Assembly: GCF_030056735.1 (NCBI RefSeq)
Contig: NZ_JASHKN010000001.1
Span: 992,001-1,056,000 of the forward strand
Direction of reading: 5' to 3'
Length of the DNA: 64,000 bases
From: Rhodococcus sp. IEGM 1409
GTDB lineage: Bacteria; Actinomycetota; Actinomycetes; Mycobacteriales; Mycobacteriaceae
Below, piece after piece: positions 1-14,860 of this stretch; within the stretch, counting starts at the first letter, position 1, and each line of letters opens with the position of its first letter. The notes below the pieces were generated by a model. It had not been told where the DNA came from. It saw only the letters and a list, made by a program, of their open reading frames with translations, and did no database searches. Made by a program: the position numbers and the translations under genes.

Positions 1-968
1 TCCGGCGCGACGGATACAACTGGGGACCGGACGACACCACCTCGGACACGGCCGGAGTACCCAAGAATGTCGTCGCGTCCATCATCACGAACAACAGCAC
101 AGCGGCCAACCAGGTGTTGTCCGGTGATCTGAACGCCGCAGCGGTTTCCGGCCCCGACCAGGATCGCATGAACGCCGCGAACCTGGACACCGTCACGCAG
201 CCGGCTCCGGCGGGCGAGATGTTCTTCAACCACAGTCCCGGCAATCCGACGAGCGATCCTGCCGTACGCAAAGCTCTGGTCCAGGCTCTCAATCTCGATG
301 ACCTCGCCGAGATCTTCACAGCCGGTCGCGGAGCCCGGTCGACCACGATGGTGTCCATCGAACCGCGGGCCTGCATCTACGACTCCATCGCCGGAAACCT
401 GCCCGCCTTCGACACCAGCGCAGCCGCAGCAACTCTCGAATCTGCAGGATGGAAGATCGGCGCCGACGGTAAGCGCAGCAAGGACGGCGCACCGCTCCGA
501 CTTCGGATGGTCTACGAAACGTTCGGTGACTCGACCGATGCTGCCGCCGACGTCGCACTCAACGCATGGAACGACCTGGGCGCCACCGTTGAACTCACCA
601 GCGGCGACTCGAACAAGATTCTCGACGTCGCACTGAGCGGCAAGGACAACACGGCCTGGGACGTTGTATGGGAGCCGATCAACGTCGCGCTGCCCAGCAT
701 GCTGGTCCCCTTCCTCTCCGGTCCGGTGCCCGCTGCGGGAATGAATTTTGCGTCGATCTCCAATCCTGCCTACGATGCAGCCGTCGTCAAAGCCTCCGGA
801 CTGACCGGCGAGGACGCTTGTGCCGCTTGGGCAGACGCTGAGTCCGAGATCATCAAAGCGAACTCGGCGGTACCTTTTGCCGACAAGATCACGACTCTCT
901 ACTTCAACAATGCGGGTCTTGCATTCGGCCGCAATTTCATCGGTTCGGCCCTGCGCCTGTACCAGTAG
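1..968 (+). CDS. Peptide ABC transporter substrate-binding protein, SBP family 5 (3' part; 5' end outside window)
   Basis: This is the C-terminal ~320 residues of an extracytoplasmic solute-binding protein of the peptide/nickel family; the first complete codon is at position 3 and no start is visible. It aligns without gaps to the next gene from the RRDGYNWGPD motif to the terminal GSALRLYQ, at roughly four residues in five identical by eye. The N-terminus with its signal and lipobox lies upstream of the window. It would deliver peptides to the importer encoded from 4675 on. It could have its own ligand range, since two more paralogues follow. The truncation is caused by the window edge, not by decay. 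Confidence 0.93.
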   Translation, partial: RRDGYNWGPDDTTSDTAGVPKNVVASIITNNSTAANQVLSGDLNAAAVSGPDQDRMNAANLDTVTQPAPAGEMFFNHSPGNPTSDPAVRKALVQALNLDDLAEIFTAGRGARSTTMVSIEPRACIYDSIAGNLPAFDTSAAAATLESAGWKIGADGKRSKDGAPLRLRMVYETFGDSTDAAADVALNAWNDLGATVELTSGDSNKILDVALSGKDNTAWDVVWEPINVALPSMLVPFLSGPVPAAGMNFASISNPAYDAAVVKASGLTGEDACAAWADAESEIIKANSAVPFADKITTLYFNNAGLAFGRNFIGSALRLYQ

Positions 969-1036
969 TGGTTCGACGTCCTGCCCGTTCGACAACTGTG
1001 CATCGACGCTCAGAGTCGACCGGGCCGGGCGACCGT

Positions 1037-1096
1037 AATTCACTACGAAGAGTCTCCGAACTTTCGTGAATTGCCACGATACGACCGAGGGGTCGT
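1037..1096. promoter_or_regulatory. Inverted repeats upstream of the second binding-protein gene
   Basis: The 215-bp gap between the first two binding-protein genes holds arms AATTCAC (1037-1043) and GTGAATT (1066-1072), continued inward by CGAA/TTTCG with a 2-nt bulge. A second pair, ACGACC (1081-1086) and GGTCGT (1091-1096), follows. TTTCGTGA at 1062-1069 recurs upstream of the third binding-protein gene. These may be operators or a weak attenuator; which regulator binds is unknown. Confidence 0.4.
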
Positions 1097-1183
1097 CGCG
1101 TTAGTGTCGTCCAATCGTCATTCGTTCCTTGCCCGCTGCATCTGTTTTCGACTTGGGCCAAGGATTCTGCCACCGGAGGCTCC

Positions 1184-2782
1184 ATGAAAAAACGTACTTG
1201 CGTCGTGCTGGCAGTCGCCGGCTGCGCGACCCTTCTCTTGTCGGCTTGTTCGTCAAGCGGGTCGCCCGGCGGTAACAACGGCCAACCCGTCACGGACGGA
1301 ACGTTCCGGCTGGCACTGTTCGGTGACCCAGGAGCGCTGAATCCGTTGATGACCACGTCCACCTACGCCCACAGTCTTGCGCGCCTCAGCTACGACTACC
1401 TGATTCACGTCGATCCGGAGACCGGGGACGCCGGGCCTTGGCTGGCCGAAAAGTGGTCAGAGACAACCACTTCAGCCGAGTTCACAATTCGCGACGGTGT
1501 CACGTGCTCCGACGGATCCGCACTGACGGCCCGCACCGTCGCAGACAGCATCAACTTCGTCACCGACGAGACCAACGGGTCCGCTCTCCGCGGGGTCTAC
1601 GTGCCTGCAACCGCAACTGCCACTGATGATCTCGCGGCCCGGACGGTGACGGTCACTACCCCGGAACCGTCCCCGTTTCTGCTCCTCAACCTGGCCCGCC
1701 TGCCGATCATGTGTGAGGCGGGATTGACGGATGCGGCAGCGGCGAACAAAACCACCATCGGGTCCGGCATGTTCCAGATGACCGAGTCCGTCGCCAACGA
1801 TCACTACACCTTCGCCCGGCGCGAGGGCTACAACTGGGGACCGGACGACACGACCTCGACCACGGCCGGTCTACCGGAAACCGTCGTCGCGTCGATCGTC
1901 CCGAACATGAGTACCGCCGCAAACCAACTTCTGTCCGGCGATCTGAACGCTGCACAGGTATCCGGCGCGGATCAGGACCGATTGAACTCTGCGCCGCTGG
2001 ATACGATCAGGCAGCCCTTCCCGTCCGGCGACATGTTCTTCAACCACACGCCGGGCAATCCGACAAGCGATCCAGCGGTGCGGAAGGCTCTCGTCCAGTC
2101 GCTGAATCTCGACGATCTCGCCGAGATCTACACCTCAGGACGTGGCACACGTTCGAGCACGATGGTGTCCGTCGAACCACGCGCATGTGTCTACGATTCG
2201 GTCACCGGCAACGTACCCGCCTTCGATCCCAACGCAGCGGCAGCAACTCTCGAGTCTGCGGGCTGGAAGGTCGGCGCGGATGGTAAGCGCAGCAAGGACG
2301 GCGCGCCGTTGCGGATCCGACTGCTCTACGAGGCACTCGGTGACTCGTCCGACGCCTCGGCGGATCTCGCGCTCTCGGCATGGTCGAACCTCGGCGCAAC
2401 CGTCGAACTGATCAGCGGCGACGCCAACAAGATTCTCGATGTCGCGCTGAGTGGCAAGGACAACTCCGCGTGGGACGTGGCGTGGGAAACAATCAACGTT
2501 GCAGTGCCGAGCATGCTCGTGCCCTTCTTCTCCGGCCCCGTTCCGGCCGACGGACTGAACTTCGCGTCCATCTCCAATCCGAACTACAACGCGGCGGTAG
2601 CCGAGGCGTCAGCAGTCACCGGCGATGCTGCGTGCTCCGCGTGGGCGGAGGCCGAGTCGGAGATCGTCAAGGCCAATTCGGCGATTCCGTTCGCCGACCA
2701 GATCACCACGCTGTACTTCTCCAATTCGGGGCTCGCCTTCGGCCGCAACTATGTCGGCTCCGCTCTTCGGTTGTACGAGTAA
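1184..2782 (+). CDS. Peptide ABC transporter substrate-binding lipoprotein (second of three tandem copies)
   Basis: A complete 532-aa SBP_bac_5 protein. It begins with a short basic n-region, a hydrophobic stretch and the lipobox LLSAC (Cys near residue 22), so it should be an anchored extracellular lipoprotein. The ATG is preceded by GGAGG at good spacing. The DPGALNP and YDYL motifs after the linker are typical of family 5 binding proteins. The length is normal for the family. It is a close paralogue of the truncated gene to its left and a more distant one of the gene at 3010. It presumably feeds peptides to the permeases encoded downstream. The gap on each side is over 200 bp, so it may have its own promoter. 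Confidence 0.95.
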   Translation: MKKRTCVVLAVAGCATLLLSACSSSGSPGGNNGQPVTDGTFRLALFGDPGALNPLMTTSTYAHSLARLSYDYLIHVDPETGDAGPWLAEKWSETTTSAEFTIRDGVTCSDGSALTARTVADSINFVTDETNGSALRGVYVPATATATDDLAARTVTVTTPEPSPFLLLNLARLPIMCEAGLTDAAAANKTTIGSGMFQMTESVANDHYTFARREGYNWGPDDTTSTTAGLPETVVASIVPNMSTAANQLLSGDLNAAQVSGADQDRLNSAPLDTIRQPFPSGDMFFNHTPGNPTSDPAVRKALVQSLNLDDLAEIYTSGRGTRSSTMVSVEPRACVYDSVTGNVPAFDPNAAAATLESAGWKVGADGKRSKDGAPLRIRLLYEALGDSSDASADLALSAWSNLGATVELISGDANKILDVALSGKDNSAWDVAWETINVAVPSMLVPFFSGPVPADGLNFASISNPNYNAAVAEASAVTGDAACSAWAEAESEIVKANSAIPFADQITTLYFSNSGLAFGRNYVGSALRLYE

Positions 2783-2860
2783 CCGTGCTGCAGCGACCGG
2801 GGAAAACGTTCTGTTTCGCCGGTCGCTGTCCGCATACAGACAGGTATTCACTGATCATGC

Positions 2861-2903
2861 CGATTTTCGTGGGAGCGGACGAAAATCGACCCGATTTTCG
2901 TGA
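2861..2903. promoter_or_regulatory. Inverted and direct repeat CGATTTTCGT upstream of the third binding-protein gene
   Basis: CGATTTTCGT (2861-2870) and its exact reverse complement ACGAAAATCG (2879-2888) flank 8 bp. A third copy, in direct orientation, follows at 2892-2901 and continues as TTTCGTGA (2896-2903), an 8-mer also present at 1062-1069 before the second binding-protein gene. The AT-rich perfect arms and the third copy favour a regulator binding site over a terminator. The operon promoter probably lies here or between here and 3010. Confidence 0.5.
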
Positions 2904-3009
2904 GGATCGACAGAGATGCGCGTCACGTCATACGCCAAGATTTAGCAGTCAACACTCAACCGCGCCCTCACGTTTTTCGCTCGGGCCCCTGCTCCTTCAC
3001 GGAGGCACC

Positions 3010-4614
3010 ATGAAACACCGCTTCTATCCAACACTTGCAGCAGCCGCAGGGCTCGCTCTCGTGTTGTCCGCTTGTGGCTCGGGAGGGACGTCCTCGGGCT
3101 CGGGTGGCGGTGAACCGGCCACGGACGGGACTTTCCGTTTTGCGATGCAGACCGATCCGGGCGCACTCAACCCGATCATGGCGGCGTCCTCGGCAACTGG
3201 CGAAATGTCGAAGTTGGCTTACGACTACCTGATCTACCAGGATCCTGATACGAGTGAAATCAAACCGTGGTTGGCAGAGAAGTGGGAAGAAACCCCGACC
3301 TCCGCGTCCTTCACCATTCGTGAAGGGGTGACCTGTACCGACGGGTCCACGCTGACTCCGCAGACCGTCGCCGACAACATCAACTTCGTGGCGAATCCGG
3401 ACAACGGTTCACAGTTGCGCGGCCAGACCGTGCCGACCGGCGCTACTGCAACCGCTGATCCCGCGACCCGCACCGTCACGGTGACCACTGCGGCGCCGAG
3501 CCCGTTCCTTCTTCTGAACGTCGGCGCCCGTCTGGCGATCATGTGTGACGCCGGGCTCGAGGACCCGACCGCTTCGAACAAGAAGTCTCTCGGTACCGGC
3601 ATGTTCGAACTCACCGAAGTTGTCCCCAACGACCACTACACGTTCGAGCGTCGTGAAGGTTACAACTGGGGCCCGGACGGAACCACCTCTGACACCCCCG
3701 GTGTCCCCAAGACGGTCGTCGCCGCCATGGCACCCAATGTCAGCACAGCAGCCAACCAGCTTCTCTCGGGTGAGCTCAATGCCGCCCCGATCGGAGGGCC
3801 GGACAAGGACCGCGTAGACGCCGCCAACCTGGACTCAGTCCTGAGGCCGAATCCCGCCGGTCAGATGTACTTCAATCAGATCGCGAGCAATCCCACCAGT
3901 GATCCCGCAGTGCGTAAGGCACTGATCCAAGCAGTCAATCTCGACGACCTCACTCAGGTCATCACTGCGGGGCGCGGTGTCCGGGCCACCAGTCTCGTCG
4001 GCGTCGAACCGCGCGCCTGTGTCTACGACTCTGTCGCGGGTAACGTTCCCGACTTCGATCTGTCTGCCGCAAAGGCAACCCTGGATGCGGCGGGCTGGAC
4101 TGCCGGCTCTGATGGCAAGCGAAGCAAGGACGGCAAGCCGCTGAACCTTCGCCTCGTCTACGACGGCGTCGACGATCCGCGCAACGCAGCAGCCGAACTT
4201 GCTCAGTCGGCGTGGTCCGAACTCGGCGCTAACGTCGAGGTGACCGGTGGTGACTCGAACAAGATCATCGACGTCATTCTCAGTGGCAAGGACAACTCTG
4301 CCTGGGACATCGCGTGGGTCCAGATCAACACTCCGCTCCCCAGCACCTTCGCCGCGTACTTCGCCGGGCCGATTCCCGCAGCAGGCAAGAACTTCGCGTC
4401 GGTCAGCAACCCCGCATACGAAGCAGCAGCAACGAAGGCCTCCGGCCTGACCGGCGACGCGGCTTGTGATGCCTGGGCCGACGCCGAGTCGGAGATCACC
4501 AAGTCGTTCTCCGCTGTGCCCTTCGCCGACTCGGTCATGAACGTGTACTTCAACAAAGCTGGGCTCGCATTCGGTAAGTCGTACACCGGTTCTGCGTTGC
4601 GTCTGTACCAGTAG
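3010..4614 (+). CDS. Peptide ABC transporter substrate-binding lipoprotein (third tandem copy, nearest the permease genes)
   Basis: A 534-aa SBP_bac_5 lipoprotein with signal sequence and lipobox VLSAC (Cys near residue 22), followed by a Gly/Ser-rich linker. The frame is open far upstream, but ATG 3010 is chosen because GGAGG lies just before it and the signal peptide starts there. It shares the RREGYNWGPD and GSALRLYQ landmarks with its two upstream paralogues but differs more from both than they do from each other. Only about 60 bp separate it from the permease gene, so it is the likely core binding protein of the importer and the first gene of the operon ending at 14796. Confidence 0.95.
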   Translation: MKHRFYPTLAAAAGLALVLSACGSGGTSSGSGGGEPATDGTFRFAMQTDPGALNPIMAASSATGEMSKLAYDYLIYQDPDTSEIKPWLAEKWEETPTSASFTIREGVTCTDGSTLTPQTVADNINFVANPDNGSQLRGQTVPTGATATADPATRTVTVTTAAPSPFLLLNVGARLAIMCDAGLEDPTASNKKSLGTGMFELTEVVPNDHYTFERREGYNWGPDGTTSDTPGVPKTVVAAMAPNVSTAANQLLSGELNAAPIGGPDKDRVDAANLDSVLRPNPAGQMYFNQIASNPTSDPAVRKALIQAVNLDDLTQVITAGRGVRATSLVGVEPRACVYDSVAGNVPDFDLSAAKATLDAAGWTAGSDGKRSKDGKPLNLRLVYDGVDDPRNAAAELAQSAWSELGANVEVTGGDSNKIIDVILSGKDNSAWDIAWVQINTPLPSTFAAYFAGPIPAAGKNFASVSNPAYEAAATKASGLTGDAACDAWADAESEITKSFSAVPFADSVMNVYFNKAGLAFGKSYTGSALRLYQ

Positions 4615-4674
4615 GCAGCATCCCGCACTGAATCTCTTCCCGCCCCAGCATCCCGCCCTCCGGAAAGACAGCCC

Positions 4675-5688
4675 ATGAGTCAAACTATTGAAGCCGCGAA
4701 ACCAGAAGCGGCGCCTCAGGCTCGAGCAAAGTGGCTCGAGTCCGACAGCTGGCCTGCATATCTGCTGCGCCGTTTCGGCACCTTCGTGATTTCACTCTGG
4801 GCGCTGGTGACTGCTGCGTTCCTGATGCTCCAACTGATTCCGGGCGACCCGGTGCGGTTGGCGCTGGGAATGAACGCACCGGTCGAACTGGTCGAGACAA
4901 CGAGGTCTCAGCTCGGTTACGACCTTCCCTTGTGGCAGCAGTACTTCCGATTCGTCGGCGGGTTGCTGAGCGGGAATCCGGGTGACTCGATCACCTTGAG
5001 GACTCCGGTCTTCGAGGTGATCGCGTCCCGCCTACCGGCAACGCTCGAACTGGCTGTACTCACAGTCGTCACGGTGCTGGTACTGGGCATTCCGATCGGC
5101 CTCATCTTCGCTGCACTGACCCGCAACGGTAGACGACGCGGAGTCGAGATCGGTTACACCGCAACGTCGGGAACCATCGCCGTGATCCCCGAGTTCATGT
5201 TCGGCACGGCATTGGTCTACCTCTTTGCCGTCACGTTCCCTGTTCTTCCCGTCGCCGGCCGCGGCGGACCGGAAAGCTACATCCTTCCGGTCGCGGCCAT
5301 GTCGATCGGTGCCATCGCCTCGATGTCGCGCATCGTACGTGCAGAGGCGCTCGGCGTGTTGGACATGGATTACATCCGCACGGCGCGCGCCAAGCGAATG
5401 ACTGTGGCACGAATCTACTTCCGTCATGCAATGCCCAACCTCTTGACGTCGACGCTGACGCTTGCCGGACTCCTCTTGGGCGCACTGATCGCCGGAACCG
5501 TGCTCATCGAGAGCATCTTCGCCTGGCCCGGCATGGGCATGGCGCTGGTCAAGTCCATCACCGAGAAGGACTACCCGCTCGCCCAGACACTGGTCGTGAT
5601 CTACGGCGCCATCGTCCTTCTCATCAATTTCATCGTCGACGTGGTGCTCGCTCTCATCGACCCACGATCCACAATTCGGGAGAACTGA
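4675..5688 (+). CDS. Peptide ABC transporter permease, DppB/OppB type
   Basis: A 337-aa inner-membrane permease. The N-terminal ~30 residues are cytoplasmic; a first membrane helix is followed by the family motif IPGDPVRLALG, a long external loop and five more hydrophobic segments. The EAA loop (YIRTARAKRM, then RHAMPN) that docks on the ATPase is present near residues 235-255. It forms the transmembrane pore together with the permease half of the next protein. The stop codon is separated from the next start by one base, so the two are translationally coupled. Confidence 0.95.
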   Translation: MSQTIEAAKPEAAPQARAKWLESDSWPAYLLRRFGTFVISLWALVTAAFLMLQLIPGDPVRLALGMNAPVELVETTRSQLGYDLPLWQQYFRFVGGLLSGNPGDSITLRTPVFEVIASRLPATLELAVLTVVTVLVLGIPIGLIFAALTRNGRRRGVEIGYTATSGTIAVIPEFMFGTALVYLFAVTFPVLPVAGRGGPESYILPVAAMSIGAIASMSRIVRAEALGVLDMDYIRTARAKRMTVARIYFRHAMPNLLTSTLTLAGLLLGALIAGTVLIESIFAWPGMGMALVKSITEKDYPLAQTLVVIYGAIVLLINFIVDVVLALIDPRSTIREN

Positions 5689-5689
5689 G

Positions 5690-7570
5690 TTGAGCACCTC
5701 ACCTACGGCCCCCACTGCGGCCCCCAAGACACCTCCACAACGACACTGGATTGTCGGAACGTTCCGCACCCCTTTGGGAATCCTGGCCCTCACCTTCCTG
5801 ACCGCTCTGATCGCCCTCGTCATCTTCGGACCGATGATCTGGGGTGACGCCGCCGTCGCGGCCAACCCGAAGGCACTGTCTCAGGGACCGAGTTCCGAGC
5901 ACATCTTCGGTACCGACGCGGGCGGGCGTGACGTCTTCGCGCGCACGATGACGGCCGCGAGGCTGTCGGTAGTCATGGCGCTCGGAGCCGTAGCACTCGG
6001 TGTGACACTCGGCCTGATCCTCGGTACGCTCCCGACGCTCGCTCCCCGGTGGGTCGGACGAATGGTCGTGGCATTCCTCAACTTCGCCATCGCGTTCCCC
6101 GGTCTCCTTCTGGCCATCTTCCTGTTGGTCGTTCTCGGACAGGGTGCGGGCAGCGCGGTGATCGCCATCGGTCTCGCCCTGGCCTCGCCGTTCGCGAGGT
6201 TGACGTACGCGCTGGCTTCGTCGGTCAACGGACGCGACTTCATCGACGCAGCACGCATCCTCGGCGTCACCAAGCCCGGGTTGTTGTTCCGCCACATTCT
6301 CCCCAACATCCGTGAACCACTCATCGTCAACGCCAGCATCGCCGTCGGCAGCGGTCTTGTGGTCTTTGCCGGACTCTCGTTCCTCGGCTTGGGCATTCAG
6401 CCACCCGCGTTCGACTGGGGCCGGATGCTCAACGAAGGTCTGTCGAAGATCTTCGTCAACCCGGCCACCGCACTCGCCCCCGGCGTCGCCGTCGTGCTCG
6501 CCGGCTTGACCTTCACGTTGCTCGGCGAGGCTATTGCTCGCGGCGCGGGAGTTCGCAGCCCGATCAGCAGTCGTCTGCCGAAGTGGAAGCCGATCAATGC
6601 ACTTACAGCTCAGACGGATTCGACGCCCAGCGACGAAGACGCGGTACTGACCGTTCGCAACATGTCCGTCGCAGTTCCTGCCGGCGGCGACTGGCGCCGA
6701 CCGGTCGACAACATCAGCTTCACCGTTCACCGCGGCGAAACCGTCGGCATCGTCGGCGAATCGGGTTCCGGAAAGTCGCTGAGTTGCATGGCGATCGCGC
6801 AGCTCACCGATTACCCCACCGTGGTCGACGCCGGCCTCATCGAATTCGACGGCACCGTGCTGATGAAAGACGGCAAGCGGCCGGATAATTCGGCTTCACG
6901 CAAGGTTGCCCGTCAACTCGGCACGCGCATGGCGATGGTGTTCCAAGATCCGATGTCGTCCATGAATCCGTCTCTGAAGGTCGGATACCAGGTCGCCGAG
7001 ATCGGTTGGCTCCACGAAGGTATGAGCAAGGCCGACGCGAAGAAGGCGGCAGTCGAGCGACTGAACGCCGTCAAGATCCCCGACGCCCCCCGCCGCGCGA
7101 AGCAGTACCCCCACGAGTTCTCCGGCGGTATGCGTCAGCGCGCGATGATCGCCATGGGTCTGATGGGCAAGCCCGCTCTGATCATCGCGGACGAACCCAC
7201 CACGGCACTCGACGTGACCGTTCAGCGTGAGGTCCTCGGACTGCTGCACGAGGTTCGCGAAGAGACCGGCGCCGCAATCCTTCTCATCTCGCACGACATG
7301 GCCGTCATCACCGGCATGTGCACCCGTGTCCTGGTCATGTTCGCCGGAGAGATCGTCGAAGACATCGCGGTCGACGACCTGATCGCCGGTCGTGCACGAC
7401 ACCCGTACACCCGCGCGCTGATCGCCGCGGTCCCCACCATGACCACCGATCGCGACAAGCCGCTCGCCACCGTCGACGAAGCCTGGCAGGTGGAAAGTCT
7501 CGACATCGAAGCGAGCACCGCAGACATCGAGTTGGATGAGCTGATGGCAGTTGCAGAGGAGATCCGATGA
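5690..7570 (+). CDS. Fused peptide ABC transporter permease (DppC type) and ATPase (DppD type)
   Basis: A 626-aa protein that combines two usually separate subunits. Residues ~1-290 are a DppC-like permease with the FGTDAGGRDVFAR motif, several membrane helices and an EAA loop ending RHILPN. From ~315 an ATPase follows, with Walker A GESGSGKS at 356-363, signature SGGMRQR from 478 and Walker B ending ADEPTTALD near 505, then an oligopeptide-type C-terminal region. The start is TTG 5690, one base after the previous stop; no better start preserves the first helix. The fusion fixes one permease and one ATPase in a 1:1 ratio, and the second permease and ATPase are the flanking genes. No frameshift or stop interrupts the junction. 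Confidence 0.93.
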   Translation: MSTSPTAPTAAPKTPPQRHWIVGTFRTPLGILALTFLTALIALVIFGPMIWGDAAVAANPKALSQGPSSEHIFGTDAGGRDVFARTMTAARLSVVMALGAVALGVTLGLILGTLPTLAPRWVGRMVVAFLNFAIAFPGLLLAIFLLVVLGQGAGSAVIAIGLALASPFARLTYALASSVNGRDFIDAARILGVTKPGLLFRHILPNIREPLIVNASIAVGSGLVVFAGLSFLGLGIQPPAFDWGRMLNEGLSKIFVNPATALAPGVAVVLAGLTFTLLGEAIARGAGVRSPISSRLPKWKPINALTAQTDSTPSDEDAVLTVRNMSVAVPAGGDWRRPVDNISFTVHRGETVGIVGESGSGKSLSCMAIAQLTDYPTVVDAGLIEFDGTVLMKDGKRPDNSASRKVARQLGTRMAMVFQDPMSSMNPSLKVGYQVAEIGWLHEGMSKADAKKAAVERLNAVKIPDAPRRAKQYPHEFSGGMRQRAMIAMGLMGKPALIIADEPTTALDVTVQREVLGLLHEVREETGAAILLISHDMAVITGMCTRVLVMFAGEIVEDIAVDDLIAGRARHPYTRALIAAVPTMTTDRDKPLATVDEAWQVESLDIEASTADIELDELMAVAEEIR

Positions 7571-8358
7571 GCAGGCTGGAATTTCGCGACGTCAACGTCC
7601 ATCTGGGAAACGGTTCCAAGAAATTCCATGCCGTCAAGAACGTCAGCCTCGACATCCCCTCCGGATCGGTCGTCGGCCTCGTCGGTGAATCGGGTTCCGG
7701 AAAGTCGACGCTGGCGCGAGCAACCGTCGGCCTGGCCGAACCAAGTTCGGGCCAGATCCTTCTCGACGGTGTAGACGTCGCTCACGCCCGAGGCGCGACG
7801 GCTCGTCTGCGCCACCGGATACAGATGGTCTTCCAAGATCCGTACTCGTGCCTCGATCCGAGAATGACCATCGGCCAGTCCTTGGCCGAGGCGTTGCGGT
7901 CCACCGAGCGTCGTGACAAAGCTCGCCGCAGCCGCGGTGACCGCGCTGCCGAGGTCGCTCGACTCCTCGCCACCGTCCAACTGCCGGTGGAGAAGGCGCA
8001 CGAATACCCGTCGTCGTTGTCGGGTGGTCAGCGCCAACGTGTGGCTCTCGCGCGGGCATTGGCTGCTGCACCAGCAGTCCTGCTTGCCGACGAAATCACC
8101 TCTGCTCTAGACGTATCCGTACAGGGCGCCGTTCTGAATCTCTTGGTGGATCTGCAGAAGCAGCTGGGTCTGACGGTTCTGTTCGTCAGTCACAATCTCG
8201 CGGTGATCCGCTACGTCTGCGACCACGTCGCAGTCATGCTCGGCGGCGAGATCGTCGAACACGGACCGGTTCTCGACGTGATCGATTCGCCCAAGGAGGC
8301 GTACACGGCCAAGCTGCTGTCTGCGATCCCGACATTCGGGGAGCCGATGTTCCAATGA
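7567..8358 (+). CDS. Peptide ABC transporter ATP-binding protein, DppF type
   Basis: A 263-aa cytoplasmic ATPase, the second nucleotide-binding subunit of the importer. Walker A GESGSGKST starts near residue 40, the signature SGGQRQR near 152 and Walker B LLADEITSALD near 172-182; the Pro normally following Asp-Glu is Ile here, a mild variant. The H-loop (SHNLAVI) is intact. It overlaps the fusion gene by 4 bp and the following hydrolase gene by 4 bp (ATGA in both cases), which indicates coupled translation. It is somewhat short because it lacks the C-terminal oligopeptide extension. Confidence 0.95.
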   Translation: MSRLEFRDVNVHLGNGSKKFHAVKNVSLDIPSGSVVGLVGESGSGKSTLARATVGLAEPSSGQILLDGVDVAHARGATARLRHRIQMVFQDPYSCLDPRMTIGQSLAEALRSTERRDKARRSRGDRAAEVARLLATVQLPVEKAHEYPSSLSGGQRQRVALARALAAAPAVLLADEITSALDVSVQGAVLNLLVDLQKQLGLTVLFVSHNLAVIRYVCDHVAVMLGGEIVEHGPVLDVIDSPKEAYTAKLLSAIPTFGEPMFQ

Positions 8359-11300
8359 CAACACCGACTACTCTCGAATCCCCTGCTGCCGTATCCCGGA
8401 CCGAAGAACGTCGTTCGGCCGGTATCCAGGATTACGCGTCCGTGGTCACACCGACCGGCATAGCGGTGTCCGTCTCGGGACGCATTGCATACGTACGTAC
8501 CGAAGCGAATCCGGCCGCGGACACCAATGAGCATTCGATCTGGCTGGCTTCCCCGCAACTACAGCTCACCGCGGGACCGGCCGACACCTCCCCTGCTTGG
8601 CACCCCGTATCCACGTTGTTGGTCTTCGTACGACCGGATTCCTCGGGCACACCGCAACTGTGGAAGGTCGATGCCACCGGCGGACCCGCCATTCAAATGA
8701 CCGCCTCGGAACAGCTCCCACTCGGCGCCGGGGCACCGGTGTTCTCTCCCGACGGCGCTCGGATCGCCTTCAGCGCTCCGGTCGACCGCACTGCCGCCGG
8801 CTCGTCACGTCTCTTGGTGACGAAACGACTCAACTACAAGGTCGACGGATCCGGCGTCCGGGGCCGCGTTCGTGCGCACCTGTTCGAGTTCGATCTGGCG
8901 GCCGGCTCGCTTAGGCAACTGACGGACGGCGATTGGGACGCTTCGCATCCCGCGTACAGTCCCGACGGCACTGAATTGGCTTTCACTGCGGCGATGGACG
9001 GCGACGCCGATCTGACGCGAGCGAGTTCCGCCTGGACCGTATCGCTGACTGATCTCGGCTCAGCTCCGCGGAAATTGGGGCACGCACGCGGCATCGGCGG
9101 CCCTCTTGCATGGACACCTGCCGGCGATGCCGTCGTAGCAGTCGGTTGGCACACGCCGATCATTCACAACAACGAACTTCTTGTCCTGCACCGAGACCAT
9201 CGGGTGGAAGACCGCAGCCTGACGGCAGAACTCGATCGAAACGTCATGCCGGGCGGGACCGGGTATCCCGGTGGCGCACCGAGTTTCACCATCGACGGCG
9301 ACGTCGTCTTCTGCATCCGCAACCACGGTTCCACCGAACTGCACAAGGTCGATTTCCGGACGGGCTCCGTCTCACCGCTTCTCACCGGTGAGCAGACAGT
9401 GGTCTCCGGCCTTTCCCTGGCCTCCGGGCGGGCCGTCGTCGCGCTGGCAACGGCGACGTCCTTCGGCGAGGTCGCCGTCATCGACCTCGAGACCACCGCC
9501 GTCGAGACCGTCACCGAATTGAACACGGAACTGACAACTTCCGTCGCATTCCCAGTCGCCACCGAGCGTTGGTTCGACATCAGCGACGGCACCCGTGTTC
9601 AGGGTTGGATCCTGCGCGACCCGAACGTCACGGGCGCCGGTCCGCTGGTTCTGGACGTCCACGGCGGACCACACAATGCCTGGACCGGAACGCCTACCGT
9701 GATGCACGCATACCACGCGGAACTGGTCGCGCTCGGCTACACGGTCTTGATGATCAATCCGCGTGGAAGTGACGGCTACGGGAACGATTTCTTCGACGGT
9801 GTGCGGGACGGCTGGGGCGAGGCGGATCGCGCTGACCTGCTCGAACCGGTCGAAACCCTTGTCGCCGAAGGGATGGCCGATCCGAAACAACTGGTGCTCA
9901 CGGGCTACAGCTACGGCGGATTCATGACGTGCGCCCTGACGTCGGTCACCGATCGGTTTGCCGTCGCAGTCGCCGGTGGCCTTGTCTGCGACATCGCGAA
10001 CACGGCGGGCCCCTCGGACGAGGGCATCTTGCTGCAGACCGTCGAATTCGACCCGCAGTCATCTCGGGTAGAGGAACTTTCGCCGTTGGGGCGAGTCGCG
10101 AAGGTGACGACACCGACGCTGATACTTCACGGCGGCAGCGACGTCCGCTGCCCGGTCAACCAGGCCGAACAGTGGTTCGGTGGGCTGCGTTTGGCCGGCA
10201 CCCCGACCGAACTGGTGGTCTACCCGGACGCGTCGCATGCCTTTGTGTTGACGGGTCGGCTTTCCCACCGACTGGATTACAACACCAGGCTGGTCGAGTG
10301 GCTCGAGCGTCACCTCTCCCCCACGCCGGCACTCATCACAGTCGAACCCGACTATTGGCAGTACCGACTCGACACCCTGAGCGCGAAGTACGGAGTACCC
10401 GGTGCCTCGCTGGGAATTTTGACCACAGGTCGCAGCGGATTCGACCGCACCGTGGTCACTTCCGGTGTCGTCAGCACCCGCACCGGTGTGCCGGCAACGC
10501 CTGACACGTTGTTCCAGATGGGTTCGATCAGCAAGGTCTGGACGGCCACACTGATCATGCAACTCGTCGAAGAAGGACTACTGGACCTCGACGCACCTGT
10601 CCGGAACATACTGCCGGACTTCGCGGTTGCCGACACGGTGGCCACCGAAACGGTCACGACTCGCCACCTGTTGACTCATACCAGTGGCATCGACGGTGAC
10701 GTCTTCATCGACGGCGGACGCGGCGACGACTGCGTCGAGCGATACGTCGCAGCCCTGACATCGACGGTGCAGCTCTTCGCCCCCGGCACCGATTGGTCGT
10801 ACTGCAACACCGGCTTCGTCATCGCCGGACGAATCATCGAGGTTCTGCGAGGTAAGAGTTGGGACGCGGTTCTGCGCAAGCGGATCATCGAGCCGCTCGG
10901 CCTGACCAAGACCACGACTCTGCCCGAGGAGACGGCACTGCACCGTGCTGCAGTCGGACACGTCGGCGGCGCGGACAATCTCGAGCAGACACCACGATTC
11001 CTCATCCCTCGTTCGATGGGTCCCGCTGGTCTCATCAACAGCACAGCCGAAGATCTACTCCTGTTCGCGCAGGATTCGATGCGCGAGGATCCGGTTCTGC
11101 TTCAGCGTTCCACTCATCTGGCGATGCTCGAGGAGCGCCGCCAGATCGGTGACGTGTCGTCTGCAGACATCATGGGAACCACTTGGCTGCTGCACAATTG
11201 GGGCGGGGCACTGGCCCATGGCCACAACGGCGGAACCCTCGGCCAGCAGTCGTTCTTGCGGGTGGTCCCGTCCTGCGGCATGGCTGTGGCCCTCATGGCC

Positions 11301-11714
11301 AACGGCGGAGCAATGGACGCTCTCTCGGGCGATCTTCTGACTGAGGTGATCGGTTCCATCGGCGGCGTTGCCGTGACACCGGCATTCTCGCCTGGTGACC
11401 CCCACACCCGCATCACGTCCTCACCCGAGGAACTCGATGCGCTGTGCGGTCTGTATCGCGATGCTGCCGCCGATTTTGTCCTGGAAAGGACCGGCAGTTC
11501 CCTGACAGCCCGCCGCACCGACCACATCGACCCTTCGATCAACGCCGAAACTGCAGAGTCCGCCTCTCTCAGCCTGATCGAAGTTCACCCTGGAGTATTC
11601 GCGACCCAACTTCCTCAAACATCAGGTTGGATTCGGATCACTTTCTCCGACAACGGGAGTACACAATTGCTACACGTCGGAAGCCGCGCATATCCGCGAG
11701 TGAACAACCGATGA
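8355..11714 (+). CDS. S9 prolyl-oligopeptidase-type peptidase fused to an S12 beta-lactamase-type hydrolase
   Basis: A 1119-aa double serine hydrolase without a signal peptide, so probably cytoplasmic. Residues ~35-400 carry WD/TolB-like propeller repeats (SPDGARIAF, SPDGTELAF). Residues ~410-655 are an S9 alpha/beta hydrolase with Ser519 in GYSYGG, Asp596 in GGSDVRC and His628 in DASHAF. Residues ~670-1010 are an S12 penicillin-binding-like domain with SISK (Ser724, Lys727), YCN (Tyr816) and HNG (957-959), followed by a C-terminal beta-rich extension. Both active sites look intact. S12 members include D-aminopeptidases and D-stereospecific esterases/peptidases. Placed between a peptide importer and D-amino-acid-type enzymes, it plausibly hydrolyses imported peptides containing D-residues. 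The substrate is inference. Confidence 0.9.
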   Translation: MTTPTTLESPAAVSRTEERRSAGIQDYASVVTPTGIAVSVSGRIAYVRTEANPAADTNEHSIWLASPQLQLTAGPADTSPAWHPVSTLLVFVRPDSSGTPQLWKVDATGGPAIQMTASEQLPLGAGAPVFSPDGARIAFSAPVDRTAAGSSRLLVTKRLNYKVDGSGVRGRVRAHLFEFDLAAGSLRQLTDGDWDASHPAYSPDGTELAFTAAMDGDADLTRASSAWTVSLTDLGSAPRKLGHARGIGGPLAWTPAGDAVVAVGWHTPIIHNNELLVLHRDHRVEDRSLTAELDRNVMPGGTGYPGGAPSFTIDGDVVFCIRNHGSTELHKVDFRTGSVSPLLTGEQTVVSGLSLASGRAVVALATATSFGEVAVIDLETTAVETVTELNTELTTSVAFPVATERWFDISDGTRVQGWILRDPNVTGAGPLVLDVHGGPHNAWTGTPTVMHAYHAELVALGYTVLMINPRGSDGYGNDFFDGVRDGWGEADRADLLEPVETLVAEGMADPKQLVLTGYSYGGFMTCALTSVTDRFAVAVAGGLVCDIANTAGPSDEGILLQTVEFDPQSSRVEELSPLGRVAKVTTPTLILHGGSDVRCPVNQAEQWFGGLRLAGTPTELVVYPDASHAFVLTGRLSHRLDYNTRLVEWLERHLSPTPALITVEPDYWQYRLDTLSAKYGVPGASLGILTTGRSGFDRTVVTSGVVSTRTGVPATPDTLFQMGSISKVWTATLIMQLVEEGLLDLDAPVRNILPDFAVADTVATETVTTRHLLTHTSGIDGDVFIDGGRGDDCVERYVAALTSTVQLFAPGTDWSYCNTGFVIAGRIIEVLRGKSWDAVLRKRIIEPLGLTKTTTLPEETALHRAAVGHVGGADNLEQTPRFLIPRSMGPAGLINSTAEDLLLFAQDSMREDPVLLQRSTHLAMLEERRQIGDVSSADIMGTTWLLHNWGGALAHGHNGGTLGQQSFLRVVPSCGMAVALMANGGAMDALSGDLLTEVIGSIGGVAVTPAFSPGDPHTRITSSPEELDALCGLYRDAAADFVLERTGSSLTARRTDHIDPSINAETAESASLSLIEVHPGVFATQLPQTSGWIRITFSDNGSTQLLHVGSRAYPRVNNR

Positions 11715-12874
11715 CCGTTCTCCGCGATCTGGCCGAGCGCCAACTTCCTCAGATCCTCGAGGACGCCATCGCGCTCATCGAAGTCGAGTCGCCGTCCCAC
11801 GATCTCGAAGCTGTTGCCCGCAGCGCGAAATGGACGTCAGACCTTGTCCACGAACGACTCGGCGTTACACCGGAGTCGATAGTGAGGGAAGGCCGAACCC
11901 ATCTGGTGACCCGTTTCGGCAGCTCACCGACGCGGCTGATGCTGCTCGGTCACCACGACACCGTGTGGCCGATCGGCACCCTGACGCGCCTGGCCGCAGC
12001 AGTCACCGACGGAGCACTTCGAGGCCCGGGTGGCCTCGACATGAAACTTGGTGTCGTTCAGGCAATCCACGCCCTCGCCATCGTCCGAGAGTTGCACGGC
12101 GACGATGCACTCGACGGAATCACACTCCTCGTAACCGGTGACGAAGAAATCGGTTCACCCACGTCGCGGTCCCTCATCGAGGAACTTGCTGCAGGCGCGG
12201 TGCTCGTCCTCGAGGCCGGCGGCGACGGCGGTGAACTCAAGACCGTCCGCAAGGGAGTGTCGCTGTATCGGATCCATGTTGCCGGCCGCGCTGCGCATGC
12301 GGGATTGGAACCGGAAAAGGGCATCAACTCGGCAGTCGAGCTGGCTCGTCTCGTGATCGCGATCAACGACTTGTCCTCTCCCGCGCAGGCAACCACCGTC
12401 ACGCCGACCGTCATTTCAGCCGGAACCACCACCAACACGGTTCCGGCAGAAGCATTTGTCGACGTGGACGTGCGTGCAACCAGCGCCGCCGAGCAGGAGC
12501 GGGTCGATTCGAATATCCGAGCCCTGCAGGCAATCCACCCCGAAGCAGTAGTAACGGTCTCGGGTGGCGTCAACCGGCCTCCCCTCGAAGCAGCGATGTC
12601 CGCACCGTTGCTTTCCCTGGCGGAACGTGTTGCGCTCGAGCATGATCTGACTCCTCCCGTCGGCCTCGCCGTCGGCGGAGCCTCGGACGGAAACTTCACT
12701 GCCGGCATCGGCATCCCCACCCTCGACGGCCTCGGTGGCGTCGGCGGCGGTGCACACGCCGAGACCGAGCATGCGCTCGTGTCCGCTATCGCCCCGAGAA
12801 CGGCGTTGGTTGCGGGCCTTATTCGTTCGATCACGTCTGAAGGGGGCCCTCGTGTCGAAAAGCAAAGCGGTTGA
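11711..12874 (+). CDS. M20 family metallohydrolase (candidate N-succinyl-L-amino acid desuccinylase)
   Basis: A 387-aa M20 peptidase/deacylase. Metal-binding and catalytic motifs are present: His81-x-Asp83 (GHHDTV), Asp110 (GGLDMK), Glu145-Glu146 (GDEEIG) and a C-terminal AHAETEH. The dimerisation domain lies between, with a RAAHAG motif. ATG 11711 overlaps the previous stop by 4 bp; the frame is open further upstream but only inside the previous gene. Carboxypeptidase G2-like and acyl-amino-acid hydrolases belong to this family. Next to a GNAT and an N-acylamino acid racemase, removal of succinate from N-succinyl-L-amino acids is the best guess; a simple dipeptidase is the alternative. Confidence 0.9.
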   Translation: MTVLRDLAERQLPQILEDAIALIEVESPSHDLEAVARSAKWTSDLVHERLGVTPESIVREGRTHLVTRFGSSPTRLMLLGHHDTVWPIGTLTRLAAAVTDGALRGPGGLDMKLGVVQAIHALAIVRELHGDDALDGITLLVTGDEEIGSPTSRSLIEELAAGAVLVLEAGGDGGELKTVRKGVSLYRIHVAGRAAHAGLEPEKGINSAVELARLVIAINDLSSPAQATTVTPTVISAGTTTNTVPAEAFVDVDVRATSAAEQERVDSNIRALQAIHPEAVVTVSGGVNRPPLEAAMSAPLLSLAERVALEHDLTPPVGLAVGGASDGNFTAGIGIPTLDGLGGVGGGAHAETEHALVSAIAPRTALVAGLIRSITSEGGPRVEKQSG

Positions 12875-13673
12875 GTTTCGAGAACTGGTCGACACCCGCG
12901 AAATAGCCGATCTGTCTGCCGTTTTCGACGAGATCTGGGCTACCAGTCCCGGACCGGCTCATTTCGGCACGGCGATGTTGGTTGCACTTCATCACGGTGG
13001 TCACTACGTGGTGGGAGCCTTCTCCGAAGGCGAAATGATCGGCGGTTGCGTCGGATTCTTCGTCGAGCCTCTCGGCGAGGTTCTGCACTCACATATTGCC
13101 GGAGTTCTACCGGGGCATGCGGGCAAGGGAATCGGCCGCGCTCTGAAGCATCATCAGCGAGACTGGTGTATCGAGCGCGGCGTCAGAACGATCCGTTGGA
13201 CTTTCGATCCACTCGTCGCACGAAATGCCTATTTCAACATCCAGCGTCTCGGTGCCGAACCGGCTGAATACAATCCGGATTTCTACGGATCGATGGCAGA
13301 CGGTATCAACGCCGGCGACGCCAGCGACCGAATGCTGGTCAGTTGGGATCTCGACGCCGATGGATCTCCGAGTTCTACTGTGGCCGTAGATGATACATTC
13401 AAGGTGCTTCAACCCACCGAGGACGGTACACCTCGGATGCTCCCGATCCCACCCGACTGCATCGACATCGCAGTCGGAATACCCAGAGACATAGAGCATC
13501 TGAGAACCGTCGACCGCGCCTCCGCCTTTGCTTGGCGACACGCGCTTCGCGAGTACCTCGAACCACTGATCGCCTCGAAGGAATGGCAATCTACCGGCTT
13601 CGACCCCAGTGGCTATTACATGTTCACGAAAATCTGCGAGACAACCGGAGAAGAGCAAGTCCATGCACATTGA
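12852..13673 (+). CDS. COG3375-type GNAT acyltransferase (candidate succinyl-CoA:D-amino acid N-succinyltransferase)
   Basis: A 273-aa GNAT. The acyl-CoA-binding loop GHAGKGIGRAL lies in the N-terminal half, followed by RTIRWTFDPL and a FYGSMADGIN segment that I recognise as typical of the COG3375 group rather than of ordinary N-acetyltransferases. GTG 12852 (VSKSKAVEF) is chosen because GGGGG precedes it and the family N-terminus starts there; it overlaps the M20 gene by 23 bp. In Geobacillus a protein of this group N-succinylates D-amino acids and is encoded with a racemase and an M20 hydrolase. The same trio here supports that role, but the substrate has to be tested. Confidence 0.85.
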   Translation: MSKSKAVEFRELVDTREIADLSAVFDEIWATSPGPAHFGTAMLVALHHGGHYVVGAFSEGEMIGGCVGFFVEPLGEVLHSHIAGVLPGHAGKGIGRALKHHQRDWCIERGVRTIRWTFDPLVARNAYFNIQRLGAEPAEYNPDFYGSMADGINAGDASDRMLVSWDLDADGSPSSTVAVDDTFKVLQPTEDGTPRMLPIPPDCIDIAVGIPRDIEHLRTVDRASAFAWRHALREYLEPLIASKEWQSTGFDPSGYYMFTKICETTGEEQVHAH

Positions 13674-14796
13674 GTCCGTCGAATTGCGCGAACTGCGCAT
13701 CCCTCTCGTCTCCCCTTTCACCACGTCATTCAGCACCCAGCTCGAGCGCAACACCCTCGTCCTGAAGGTGAGTGGCACCACCGAGGGTCCCAACGGCCCG
13801 GTGGATACTGTCGGCTGGGGCGAGTGCGGCTCGCTGAGCGATCCGTACTACAACTCGGAGTACACCGCCGGAGCGCGAGCGATGCTGCGCGAGTATCTCG
13901 TTCCTACGCTGCGTAAGTCGCAGTCGGATCAGCCGCTCTCGGCCGAGACCGTCGGCAGCGTGCTTCATCCCATCGTGGGTCATCAGATGTCCAAGTCGGC
14001 CATCGAAATGGCAATCCTCGACGCGGAATTGCGTGCTCGCGGACAGTCGTTCGCTCGGTACCTCGGGGCCACTCGCACGCGGGTTCCGTCCGGTGTATCC
14101 GTCGGTATCCAGGACAGCATTCCGCAGTTGCTCGAGACCGTCGGCAACTACCTGTCCCAGGGTTACGTGCGAATCAAGCTGAAGATCAAGCCGGGCTGGG
14201 ACATCGAACCTGTGGCAGCAGTGCGCAAGGAGTTCGGCTACGACGTCCCCTTGCAGGTCGACGCGAATGCCGCGTACACCCTTGTCGACGCGCAGCTGCT
14301 GCGTCGCCTGGACGAATTCGCGTTGCTACTCATCGAACAGCCGCTGGCCGAGGACGATTTGGTGCAGCACGCCAAGCTTGCCCAGTCCCTCTCGACTCCG
14401 ATCTGCCTCGACGAGTCGGTCGAGTCGGCCAAGGATGCGGCGGACGCCATCACGCTCGGTGCCGCTTCGGTCATCAACATCAAGCCGAGCCGTGTCGGTG
14501 GATACCTGGAAGCCAAGCGAATCCACGATCTCGCCTCGGCGCACGGTATTGCGGTGTGGTGCGGCGGAATGCTCGAGACCGGAATCGGCCGCGCCGCCAA
14601 CGCAGCTCTCGCGGCGTTGGACGGCTTCACACTGCCCGGCGACATCTCGGCGTCCGATCGCTTCTACAAGGAAGACATCACCGAACCGTTTGTCATCGAG
14701 GACGGCCACATCGCCGTGCCCCAGGGACCGGGCTTCGGTGTGACTCCGCGTGAGGACGTCATGGAGCGCTTCACCGTCGGAACCGAAATTCTGTAG
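13663..14796 (+). CDS. N-acylamino acid (N-succinylamino acid) racemase / o-succinylbenzoate synthase family enzyme
   Basis: A 377-aa enolase-superfamily protein of the MenC/NSAR group. The catalytic set is visible: Lys172-x-Lys174 on strand 2, metal ligands Asp200 (VDAN), Glu225 (IEQPL) and Asp250 (CLDES), and Lys274 on strand 6 (INIKPSR). ATG 13663 overlaps the GNAT gene by 11 bp. Family members make o-succinylbenzoate for menaquinone, racemise N-succinylamino acids, or do both. No men genes are nearby and the partners are a GNAT and an M20 hydrolase, so racemisation is favoured. It is the last gene of the operon, 19 bp before a strong terminator. Confidence 0.9.
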   Translation: MHIESVELRELRIPLVSPFTTSFSTQLERNTLVLKVSGTTEGPNGPVDTVGWGECGSLSDPYYNSEYTAGARAMLREYLVPTLRKSQSDQPLSAETVGSVLHPIVGHQMSKSAIEMAILDAELRARGQSFARYLGATRTRVPSGVSVGIQDSIPQLLETVGNYLSQGYVRIKLKIKPGWDIEPVAAVRKEFGYDVPLQVDANAAYTLVDAQLLRRLDEFALLLIEQPLAEDDLVQHAKLAQSLSTPICLDESVESAKDAADAITLGAASVINIKPSRVGGYLEAKRIHDLASAHGIAVWCGGMLETGIGRAANAALAALDGFTLPGDISASDRFYKEDITEPFVIEDGHIAVPQGPGFGVTPREDVMERFTVGTEIL

Positions 14797-14815
14797 GTTT
14801 CCACTACGTCAGCTG

Positions 14816-14860
14816 CAGTCACCTCCGCCCTCACCCGGCGGAGGTGACTGTTTGTCGTTT
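14816..14860 (+). terminator. Rho-independent terminator of the peptide/D-amino acid operon
   Basis: Perfect 14-bp arms, CAGTCACCTCCGCC (14816-14829) and GGCGGAGGTGACTG (14837-14850), with a 7-nt loop are followed by TTTGTCGTTTG. It lies 19 bp after the racemase stop and closes the operon. Confidence 0.9.

Follow-up and report, generated by a model that had tools for sequence, protein, structure and literature searches.

The first 14.9 kb of the window, a 64-kb stretch of the 6.1-Mb genome of Rhodococcus sp. IEGM 1409 (C11:992001-1056000), carry an operon for a probable peptide importer, a double serine hydrolase and three putative enzymes of amino acid conversion. Judged by its gene families and their recurrence, the operon probably serves to scavenge peptides that contain D-amino acids, by import, cytosolic cleavage and D-to-L conversion, a reading to which we assign a probability of roughly 0.7. 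Three receptors (solute-binding proteins SBP1 to SBP3) and an ABC importer of the Dpp type would bring short peptides into the cytosol, where the double hydrolase of families S9 and S12 would cleave them, its S9 half presumably acting as an exopeptidase on L-residue bonds and its S12 half on D-residue bonds. A GNAT-family acyltransferase would N-succinylate the released D-amino acids, an N-succinylamino acid racemase (NSAR) would racemize the N-succinyl-D-amino acids, and an M20 hydrolase would free succinate from the L-enantiomer alone. Hydrolysis of the L-form would pull racemization one way, turning each D-amino acid into its L-form at the cost of one succinyl-CoA. The last three steps are modelled on the chemistry of a Geobacillus trio, reportedly worked out by Sakai et al. 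in 2006.

Operon layout and its recurrence in actinobacteria

By a list of open reading frames (ORFs), which reached 30 kb into the window, and by family searches, the operon genes are all collinear on the plus strand. They begin with three family 5 solute-binding lipoproteins: SBP1 (3′ part at 1..968, PF00496, with the 5′ part upstream of the window), SBP2 (1184..2782, PF00496 at 154 bits, 76% identical to SBP1) and SBP3 (3010..4614, PF00496 at 173 bits, starting MKHRF). These are followed by the DppB/OppB-type permease PermB (4675..5688, PF00528 and PF19300), by PermC-ATP1, a permease fused to an OppD/DppD-type ATPase (5690..7570, PF00528 and PF00005), and by the OppF/DppF-type ATPase ATP2 (7567..8358, PF00005). 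The S9-S12 double serine hydrolase comes next (8355..11714, PF00326 and PF00144), then a carboxypeptidase G2-like M20 hydrolase, our proposed N-succinyl-L-amino acid desuccinylase (11711..12874, PF01546/PF07687, match to 1cg2 at 1.1e-31), a GNAT acyltransferase with a C-terminal extension, the proposed D-amino acid N-succinyltransferase (12852..13673, PF00583), and finally an enolase of the NSAR/OSBS subfamily, the proposed racemase (13663..14796, TIGR01928 at 296.8 bits, cut-off 200.65). Overlaps of 4, 4, 4, 23 and 11 bp occur solely from the PermC/ATPase gene through NSAR; PermB and PermC are 1 bp apart, and the SBP1/SBP2, SBP2/SBP3 and SBP3/PermB gaps measure 215, 227 and 60 bp.

The initial annotation had listed these gene types as running in one direction, which they do, with overlaps of 4-23 bp, which holds from the PermC/ATPase gene onward but not for the SBP genes with their spacing of 60-227 bp. 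It had also called positions 1..14860 a putative complete system; every gene type it named is there, but the start of SBP1 and a PucR-type regulator lie upstream.

All parts of a Dpp/Opp importer are present, namely family 5 SBPs, two BPD_transp_1 permeases and two ABC ATPases. The three SBPs are paralogues (62-76% identical), and since a same-genus relative (L142) shows SBP1 and SBP3 alone, without SBP2, the latter looks like a recent duplicate. Close to its N-terminus SBP1 carries LTAC, which we take to be a lipobox-like motif.

To survey gene order, we scanned named genomes with a GNAT alignment, which gave at least 590 confirmed loci; the best 80 were retained, with flanks of up to 10 kb on either side, a set biased toward near relatives of the window GNAT and, by its titles, wholly actinobacterial. 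Neighbours were counted as tblastn matches of at least 60 bits within these flanks, contig ends lowering the counts. On the GNAT strand, NSAR was no more than 0.5 kb away in 67 of the 80 loci, and M20 in 51. Within 10 kb on the GNAT strand we found PucR in 38/80, S12 in 34/80, PermB and ATP2 in 30/80 each and S9 in 29/80; PermB, PermC, ATP2, NSAR and S9 or S12 were all on that strand in 24/80. The full order SBP-PermB-PermC-ATP1-ATP2-S9-S12-M20-GNAT-NSAR-PucR could be read in several named genomes, including those of Actinophytocola gossypii, Kibdelosporangium persicum, Kribbella kalugense and Nocardioides hwasunensis, and likewise of Lentzea albidocapillata, Actinomadura geliboluensis and Streptomyces sp. 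YIM 130001. In a separate set of genomes from the same order, the GNAT query matched 74/298 at E 0.001, weak matches counted.

The arrangement is not unique to the source genome and recurs in other actinobacterial genera. We therefore reject both its confinement to the source clade and, as the gene order recurs, a chance juxtaposition of hydrolases. The initial annotation had suggested just such a gene-order survey in other actinobacteria, and its central idea, that the conversion trio is wired to an importer and to an S12-containing hydrolase, gains support from this recurrent synteny. As a separate observation, the GNAT gene of genome G108 (L143:1-11256) has no NSAR partner and precedes genes for molybdopterin dehydrogenase subunits; importer ATPase genes and PucR lie close by.

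The proposed conversion enzymes and the double hydrolase

The nearest solved relatives of the window NSAR are those of the Amycolatopsis racemase 1sja (473.8 bits; the next set scores 304.7 bits), a member of the same subfamily with the same catalytic residues. K172, K174, K274, D200, E225 and D250, which we take to be the KxK motif, the opposing lysine and the D/E/D metal ligands, are invariant in 69/69 sequences. R277, the equivalent of Amycolatopsis R266, is likewise arginine in 69/69, and 7s8w has glutamine at that position; an arginine here is reported to favour NSAR activity. The NCBIfam model that the protein passes, TIGR01928, is named o-succinylbenzoate synthase (OSBS), and the racemase might on that account serve menaquinone synthesis in an operon unrelated to D-amino acids. 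Against this stand the invariant R266 equivalent, the peptide-related gene neighbours and a separate actinobacterial menC (L136:6474-7466, PRK02901 at 468.6 bits, cut-off 288), which has menB and menD in its vicinity. Given that separate menC, we reject a menaquinone role as very unlikely, and the objection that the racemase might be solely an OSBS, foreseen by the initial annotation, falls away.

In the M20 protein, H81, D83, D110, E145, E146, E168 and H349, presumably its metal site, are invariant in 54/54 sequences. The GNAT fold is borne out by PF00583, by a structure model with pLDDT 92.4 and by fold matches to generic acetyltransferases only, which span about 160-190 columns and show no donor specificity.

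As for the residues to be converted, a review tabulates succinyl-phenylglycine, succinyl-phenylalanine and acetyl-methionine as the substrates used in NSAR assays (PMC8142540). Because of these, and because a tryptophan dioxygenase gene stands beside a second set of conversion genes (see below), we favour peptides whose D-residues are hydrophobic or aromatic, like those of nonribosomal peptides, and consider peptidoglycan with its D-Ala and D-Glu a less likely source.

The S9-S12 protein consists of a beta-propeller and S9 domain (residues 1-655), an S12 domain (about 669-1000) and a C-terminal beta domain, and by eye its N-terminus has no apparent signal peptide. Across 28 aligned fused proteins, the S9 triad S519/D596/H628 and the S12 motif residues (SxxK, YxN, HxG) S724, K727, Y816, N818 and H957 are invariant (28/28), and G959 is kept in 27/28, the remaining one having a gap. 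In the structure model (pLDDT 81.7), the propeller/S9 part best matches the S9 carboxypeptidase 8wt1 in Foldseek (28% identity, target TM about 0.86), and the S12 domain, taken together with the C-terminal beta-strand domain at 1032-1115, aligns with IS11 (7spn) over 464 columns at a target TM of 0.82. By sequence, the S12 module is related to the Pab87 structure 2qmi (95.4 bits). According to its published description, IS11 was assayed as an esterase and has the D-peptidase Pab87 among its closest matches in structure (PMC9972953). S9 and S12 are fused in 22/80 loci (23 ORFs) and are separate or single in others; in the family of the source genome, both halves were matched in 4/151 genomes, all of the same genus, among the matches listed.

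It is tempting to view the fusion as a stereo-complementary double peptidase in which an L-specific S9 exopeptidase is joined to a D-specific S12 exopeptidase, a tentative idea that we hold with more doubt than conviction. If it were true, mixed-chirality peptides, nonribosomal or modified, could be dismantled from either residue type and would feed the D-to-L conversion, giving actinobacteria a dedicated feeding route on mixed-chirality peptides that resist ordinary peptidases.

The same enzymes might instead handle N-acylated amino acids and peptides of either chirality in general, D-residues being incidental to such a system. S9-S12 would then be an acylpeptide hydrolase with an esterase, M20 an aminoacylase, NSAR an N-acylamino acid racemase and GNAT a detoxifying or recycling acyltransferase. 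Such a system would fit the acylaminoacyl peptidases among the S9 relatives, the closest S12 structure being an esterase, the resemblance of M20 to carboxypeptidase G2, in a family that also holds aminoacylases (PMC11511702), and the many N-acyl groups that NSARs are described as taking (PMC7431475). However, a GNAT that makes N-acyl compounds has no obvious use if N-acyl amino acids are what is imported, and M55, M19 and D-serine-dehydratase-like neighbours suit D-residues. We consider this alternative unlikely, and continue with D-peptide scavenging as the preferred reading.

D-residue genes, the genus and the ends of the operon

The D-peptide theme of the initial annotation gains weight from the company these genes keep, namely M55, M19, S12, a PRK09061-type amidohydrolase and a D-serine-dehydratase-like gene. 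An M19 dipeptidase gene lies within 10 kb on the GNAT strand in 14/80 of the named loci, two of them more than 8 kb off and one (L099) without NSAR; in the Lentzea loci L095, L100, L116 and L118 the match sits between ATP2 and S9. The closest solved M19 set, around 3id7, is labelled "Dipeptidase | renal dipeptidase", and we take 3id7 to be the Streptomyces enzyme that prefers L-Xaa-D-Xaa. A PF07969 amidohydrolase is found on the GNAT strand in 13/80 loci, two of these copies being just 24-26% identical to that of the source genome. Against PRK09061, which we take to be a D-glutamate deacylase model (cut-off 340), the source-genome amidohydrolase scores 733.7 bits and a copy from Amycolatopsis azurea 636.9 bits. 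Several Amycolatopsis loci have M20-GNAT-NSAR and the PF07969 amidohydrolase on one strand, with S12 and importer genes downstream.

Elsewhere in the source genome, contig C3 carries a second set (L054:7028-18000) in which PucR, NSAR, GNAT, M20, tryptophan 2,3-dioxygenase, MFS and M55 genes share one strand, and a PF07969/PRK09061 amidohydrolase and a D-serine-dehydratase-like gene occupy the other. Its NSAR is 58% identical to that of the window, its tryptophan 2,3-dioxygenase scores 379.1 bits, slightly below the cut-off of 390.7, and its M55 D-aminopeptidase is above the Pfam cut-off (PF04951, 296.4 bits); the nearest structure to the source-genome M55 is 1hi9, DppA. The MFS, tryptophan dioxygenase, M20, GNAT, NSAR and PucR genes stay together in the relatives L177 and L178. 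This second set suggests a route from D-tryptophan to kynurenine. Among the 80 named loci, a trimmed tryptophan 2,3-dioxygenase query matched none (0/80), and an apparent match in Kutzneria (L078) was dropped, as it fell on an over-long 5′ part of the query that overlaps a transporter gene.

Further loci combine importer parts with other D-residue enzymes. On C57 (L182:5869-16447), the series SBP-PermB-PermC-ATPase-ATPase is joined, all in one direction, by genes for a class A beta-lactamase-like protein, S12, M55 and a DAO-family oxidoreductase; this may be another D-peptide route, with oxidation in place of racemization as its last step. On C55 (L055:5322-12906), S12, an SBP of the operon's subfamily, a DAO-family oxidoreductase and another S12 are likewise unidirectional; C3 also carries SBP-S9S12-S12, and an S12-M19 pair lies on C11, 103 kb from the operon. 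In genomes of the order that have both matches (GNAT E <1e-20; judged by eye), M55 was within 5 kb of GNAT in 3/16. The links to M55, D-serine-dehydratase-like and DAO genes rest mainly on the source genome and its relatives, because the named loci show them in 0-1 of 80 cases. Class A beta-lactamase-like genes (PF13354) near S12 or SBP genes were seen at L114:13299-14186, L174:10175-11581 and L182:11426-12382.

Beta-lactam antibiotics or their opened products might also be the source of the D-residues, with beta-lactamase-fold enzymes opening and cleaving the drugs and freed side chains of the D-phenylglycine type entering the NSAR trio. The S12 modules have the penicillin-recognizing fold, an ORF family with one scanned member in PF13354 occurs in 9/80 loci, with others in L174 and L182, and succinyl-phenylglycine is the assay substrate for most NSARs in the published tabulation (PMC8142540). 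The window operon itself shows no PF13354-type gene, however; the one such protein scored in NCBIfam reached 95.3 bits vs a class A cut-off of 200, and the importer family is broad. We hold this source to be distinctly improbable, more so than the N-acyl alternative, and return to D-peptides at large.

Within the genus, the genes seen in fetched stretches of three genomes keep the window order at 89.7-99.7% protein identity. The window-type NSAR occurs in 7/28 same-genus genomes (97-100% identity), a second NSAR type in 6/28, and a strong M19 class in exactly the seven genomes with the window type. The distance between M19 and NSAR is 1.1 kb in G434 and 4.1 kb in G430, as against 103-120 kb in the remaining five genomes. 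In two relatives, an S12-M19 pair stands 1-4 kb from NSAR. In G434, an island of about 31 kb (L174, L175) gathers S12, importer-GNAT-NSAR, M19, another S12 and a second PucR-NSAR-GNAT, together with M55, an amidohydrolase, a D-serine-dehydratase-like gene, an SBP and, truncated by the end of the fetched stretch, the first part of an S9 gene that resembles the S9-S12 of C3. In G419, a 43-codon piece of NSAR (L176:10130-10258, 81% identical) is framed by the same two neighbours (93% and 85% identical), with no other match to the block in the 19 kb fetched; this remnant between conserved flanks points to loss of the block.

A PucR-type regulator encoded just 5′ of the operon, on the strand of SBP1 (L001:11617-13224), probably controls it. 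The full SBP1 ORF spans L001:13265-14968, leaving a gap of 40 bp if the longest ORF is taken; an ATG further in, at L001:13370 behind GGAGG, is the likelier start and would widen the gap to 145 bp. Upstream of SBP3, at 2861..2900 (no strand assigned), three 9-mers (CGATTTTCG, CGAAAATCG, CGATTTTCG) form an operator-like cluster. By exact-match script, these are the sole copies in the window; two to three copies are kept in the relatives L142, L139 and L141 and none in L174 and L181, and the cluster is a possible operator. Two further elements were seen, CTTTCGTGAATT upstream of SBP2 at 1061 and CCTTCGTAAATT upstream of SBP1 at L001:13247. A sigma-70 scan, uninformative for an actinobacterium, gave no promoter.

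At the 3′ end, a terminator-like hairpin follows NSAR (14815..14851, plus strand), with 15 pairs the longest stem among the five such sites scanned in 15.7 kb. The terminator named by the initial annotation corresponds to this hairpin, but the T run is weak and the scan alone is no evidence, five sites comparing with a shuffle mean of 9.3.

Standing of the proposal and known relatives

Several observations weigh against D-peptide scavenging as the role of the operon. The whole pathway is a prediction from gene families and gene order, and the neighbour counts are raw numbers, uncorrected for chance. In 56 of the 80 loci, the importer genes, NSAR and S9 or S12 were not all matched on one strand, perhaps partly through the 10-kb flanks and contig ends. 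GNAT stands without NSAR in 13/80, 11 of them from Brevibacterium (L062, L063, L067, L070, L071, L073, L079, L081, L084, L089, L112), which disfavours a strict tie between the two; these loci have recurrent genes for acyl-CoA synthetase, enoyl-CoA hydratase and 3-hydroxyacyl-CoA dehydrogenase, and GNAT proteins of this family may have a part in other pathways. No M20 match lay on the GNAT strand in 29/80 loci, 16 of which have NSAR, and the G434 and G430 operons likewise showed none; G434 lacks S9-S12 at its place in the operon and G430 has S9 only there, which speaks against a fixed unit. The seven genomes sharing NSAR and M19 may be one clade, and their co-occurrence count is thus non-independent. 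M55 was near GNAT in 1/80 named loci, on the other strand, and D-serine-dehydratase-like and DAO genes in 0/80; both source-genome M55 proteins score under the DppA equivalog cut-off (C3, 184.4 vs 430 bits).

Substrate assignments are affected as well. The acyl donor and acceptor proposed for GNAT are tentative, and its family profile finds no PDB sequence match at E 0.01. The closest solved S12 relative is IS11, described as an esterase. Among the models listed, neither the importer proteins nor M20 reach an NCBIfam cut-off, so that the substrates proposed for them are tentative, and the SBP matches are spread across NikA, DppA, OppA and other binding proteins. On balance, the interpretation of the initial annotation is partly supported, and as a genomic prediction it stands well.

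Parts of the arrangement have precedents. The Geobacillus kaustophilus pathway is reported to have the same three adjacent enzyme families, with the same proposed D-to-L logic; in the operon here, such a trio is joined by importer genes, the S9-S12 peptidase and a regulator of the PucR type. In Bacillus subtilis, dppABCDE-ykf comprises the D-aminopeptidase DppA, a peptide importer and an L-Ala-D/L-Glu epimerase. It resembles our operon in joining importer, D-peptidase and an enolase-superfamily enzyme acting on D-residues, but uses M55 in place of S9-S12, epimerizes dipeptides instead of succinylated free amino acids and handles murein peptides. The Amycolatopsis racemase 1sja is known as a biocatalyst. 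In Pyrococcus abyssi, Pab87, an S12 protein with a C-terminal lipocalin domain, was shown to act on D-amino acid peptides; its gene has neighbours for a D-aminoacylase and for an ABC transporter of dipeptides, and the study suggested that it processes D-peptides from the environment (PMC2651629). That locus shares a related S12 module with a peptide importer alongside, but is archaeal, and the published account lists no GNAT, NSAR or M20 with it and describes no S9 fusion (PMC2651629).

An importer with an S12 D-peptidase, and GNAT-NSAR-M20, are accordingly known singly; their combination with S9-S12 in a single operon conserved among actinobacteria may be new. The initial annotation knew of no description of the full arrangement, and we likewise found none in the open-access literature, subscription papers lying outside that search.

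To our knowledge, the physiological purpose of the promiscuous NSAR/OSBS enzymes is an open question. The operon would give them a concrete role in several actinobacterial genera, as the final stage of D-peptide salvage. From it follows, too, a predicted class of substrates for a subfamily of peptide importers, the S9-S12 double hydrolases and a GNAT family that has no solved relative. Its enzymes could serve in making enantiopure amino acids, and the proposed route suggests how such bacteria may recycle peptides with D-residues.

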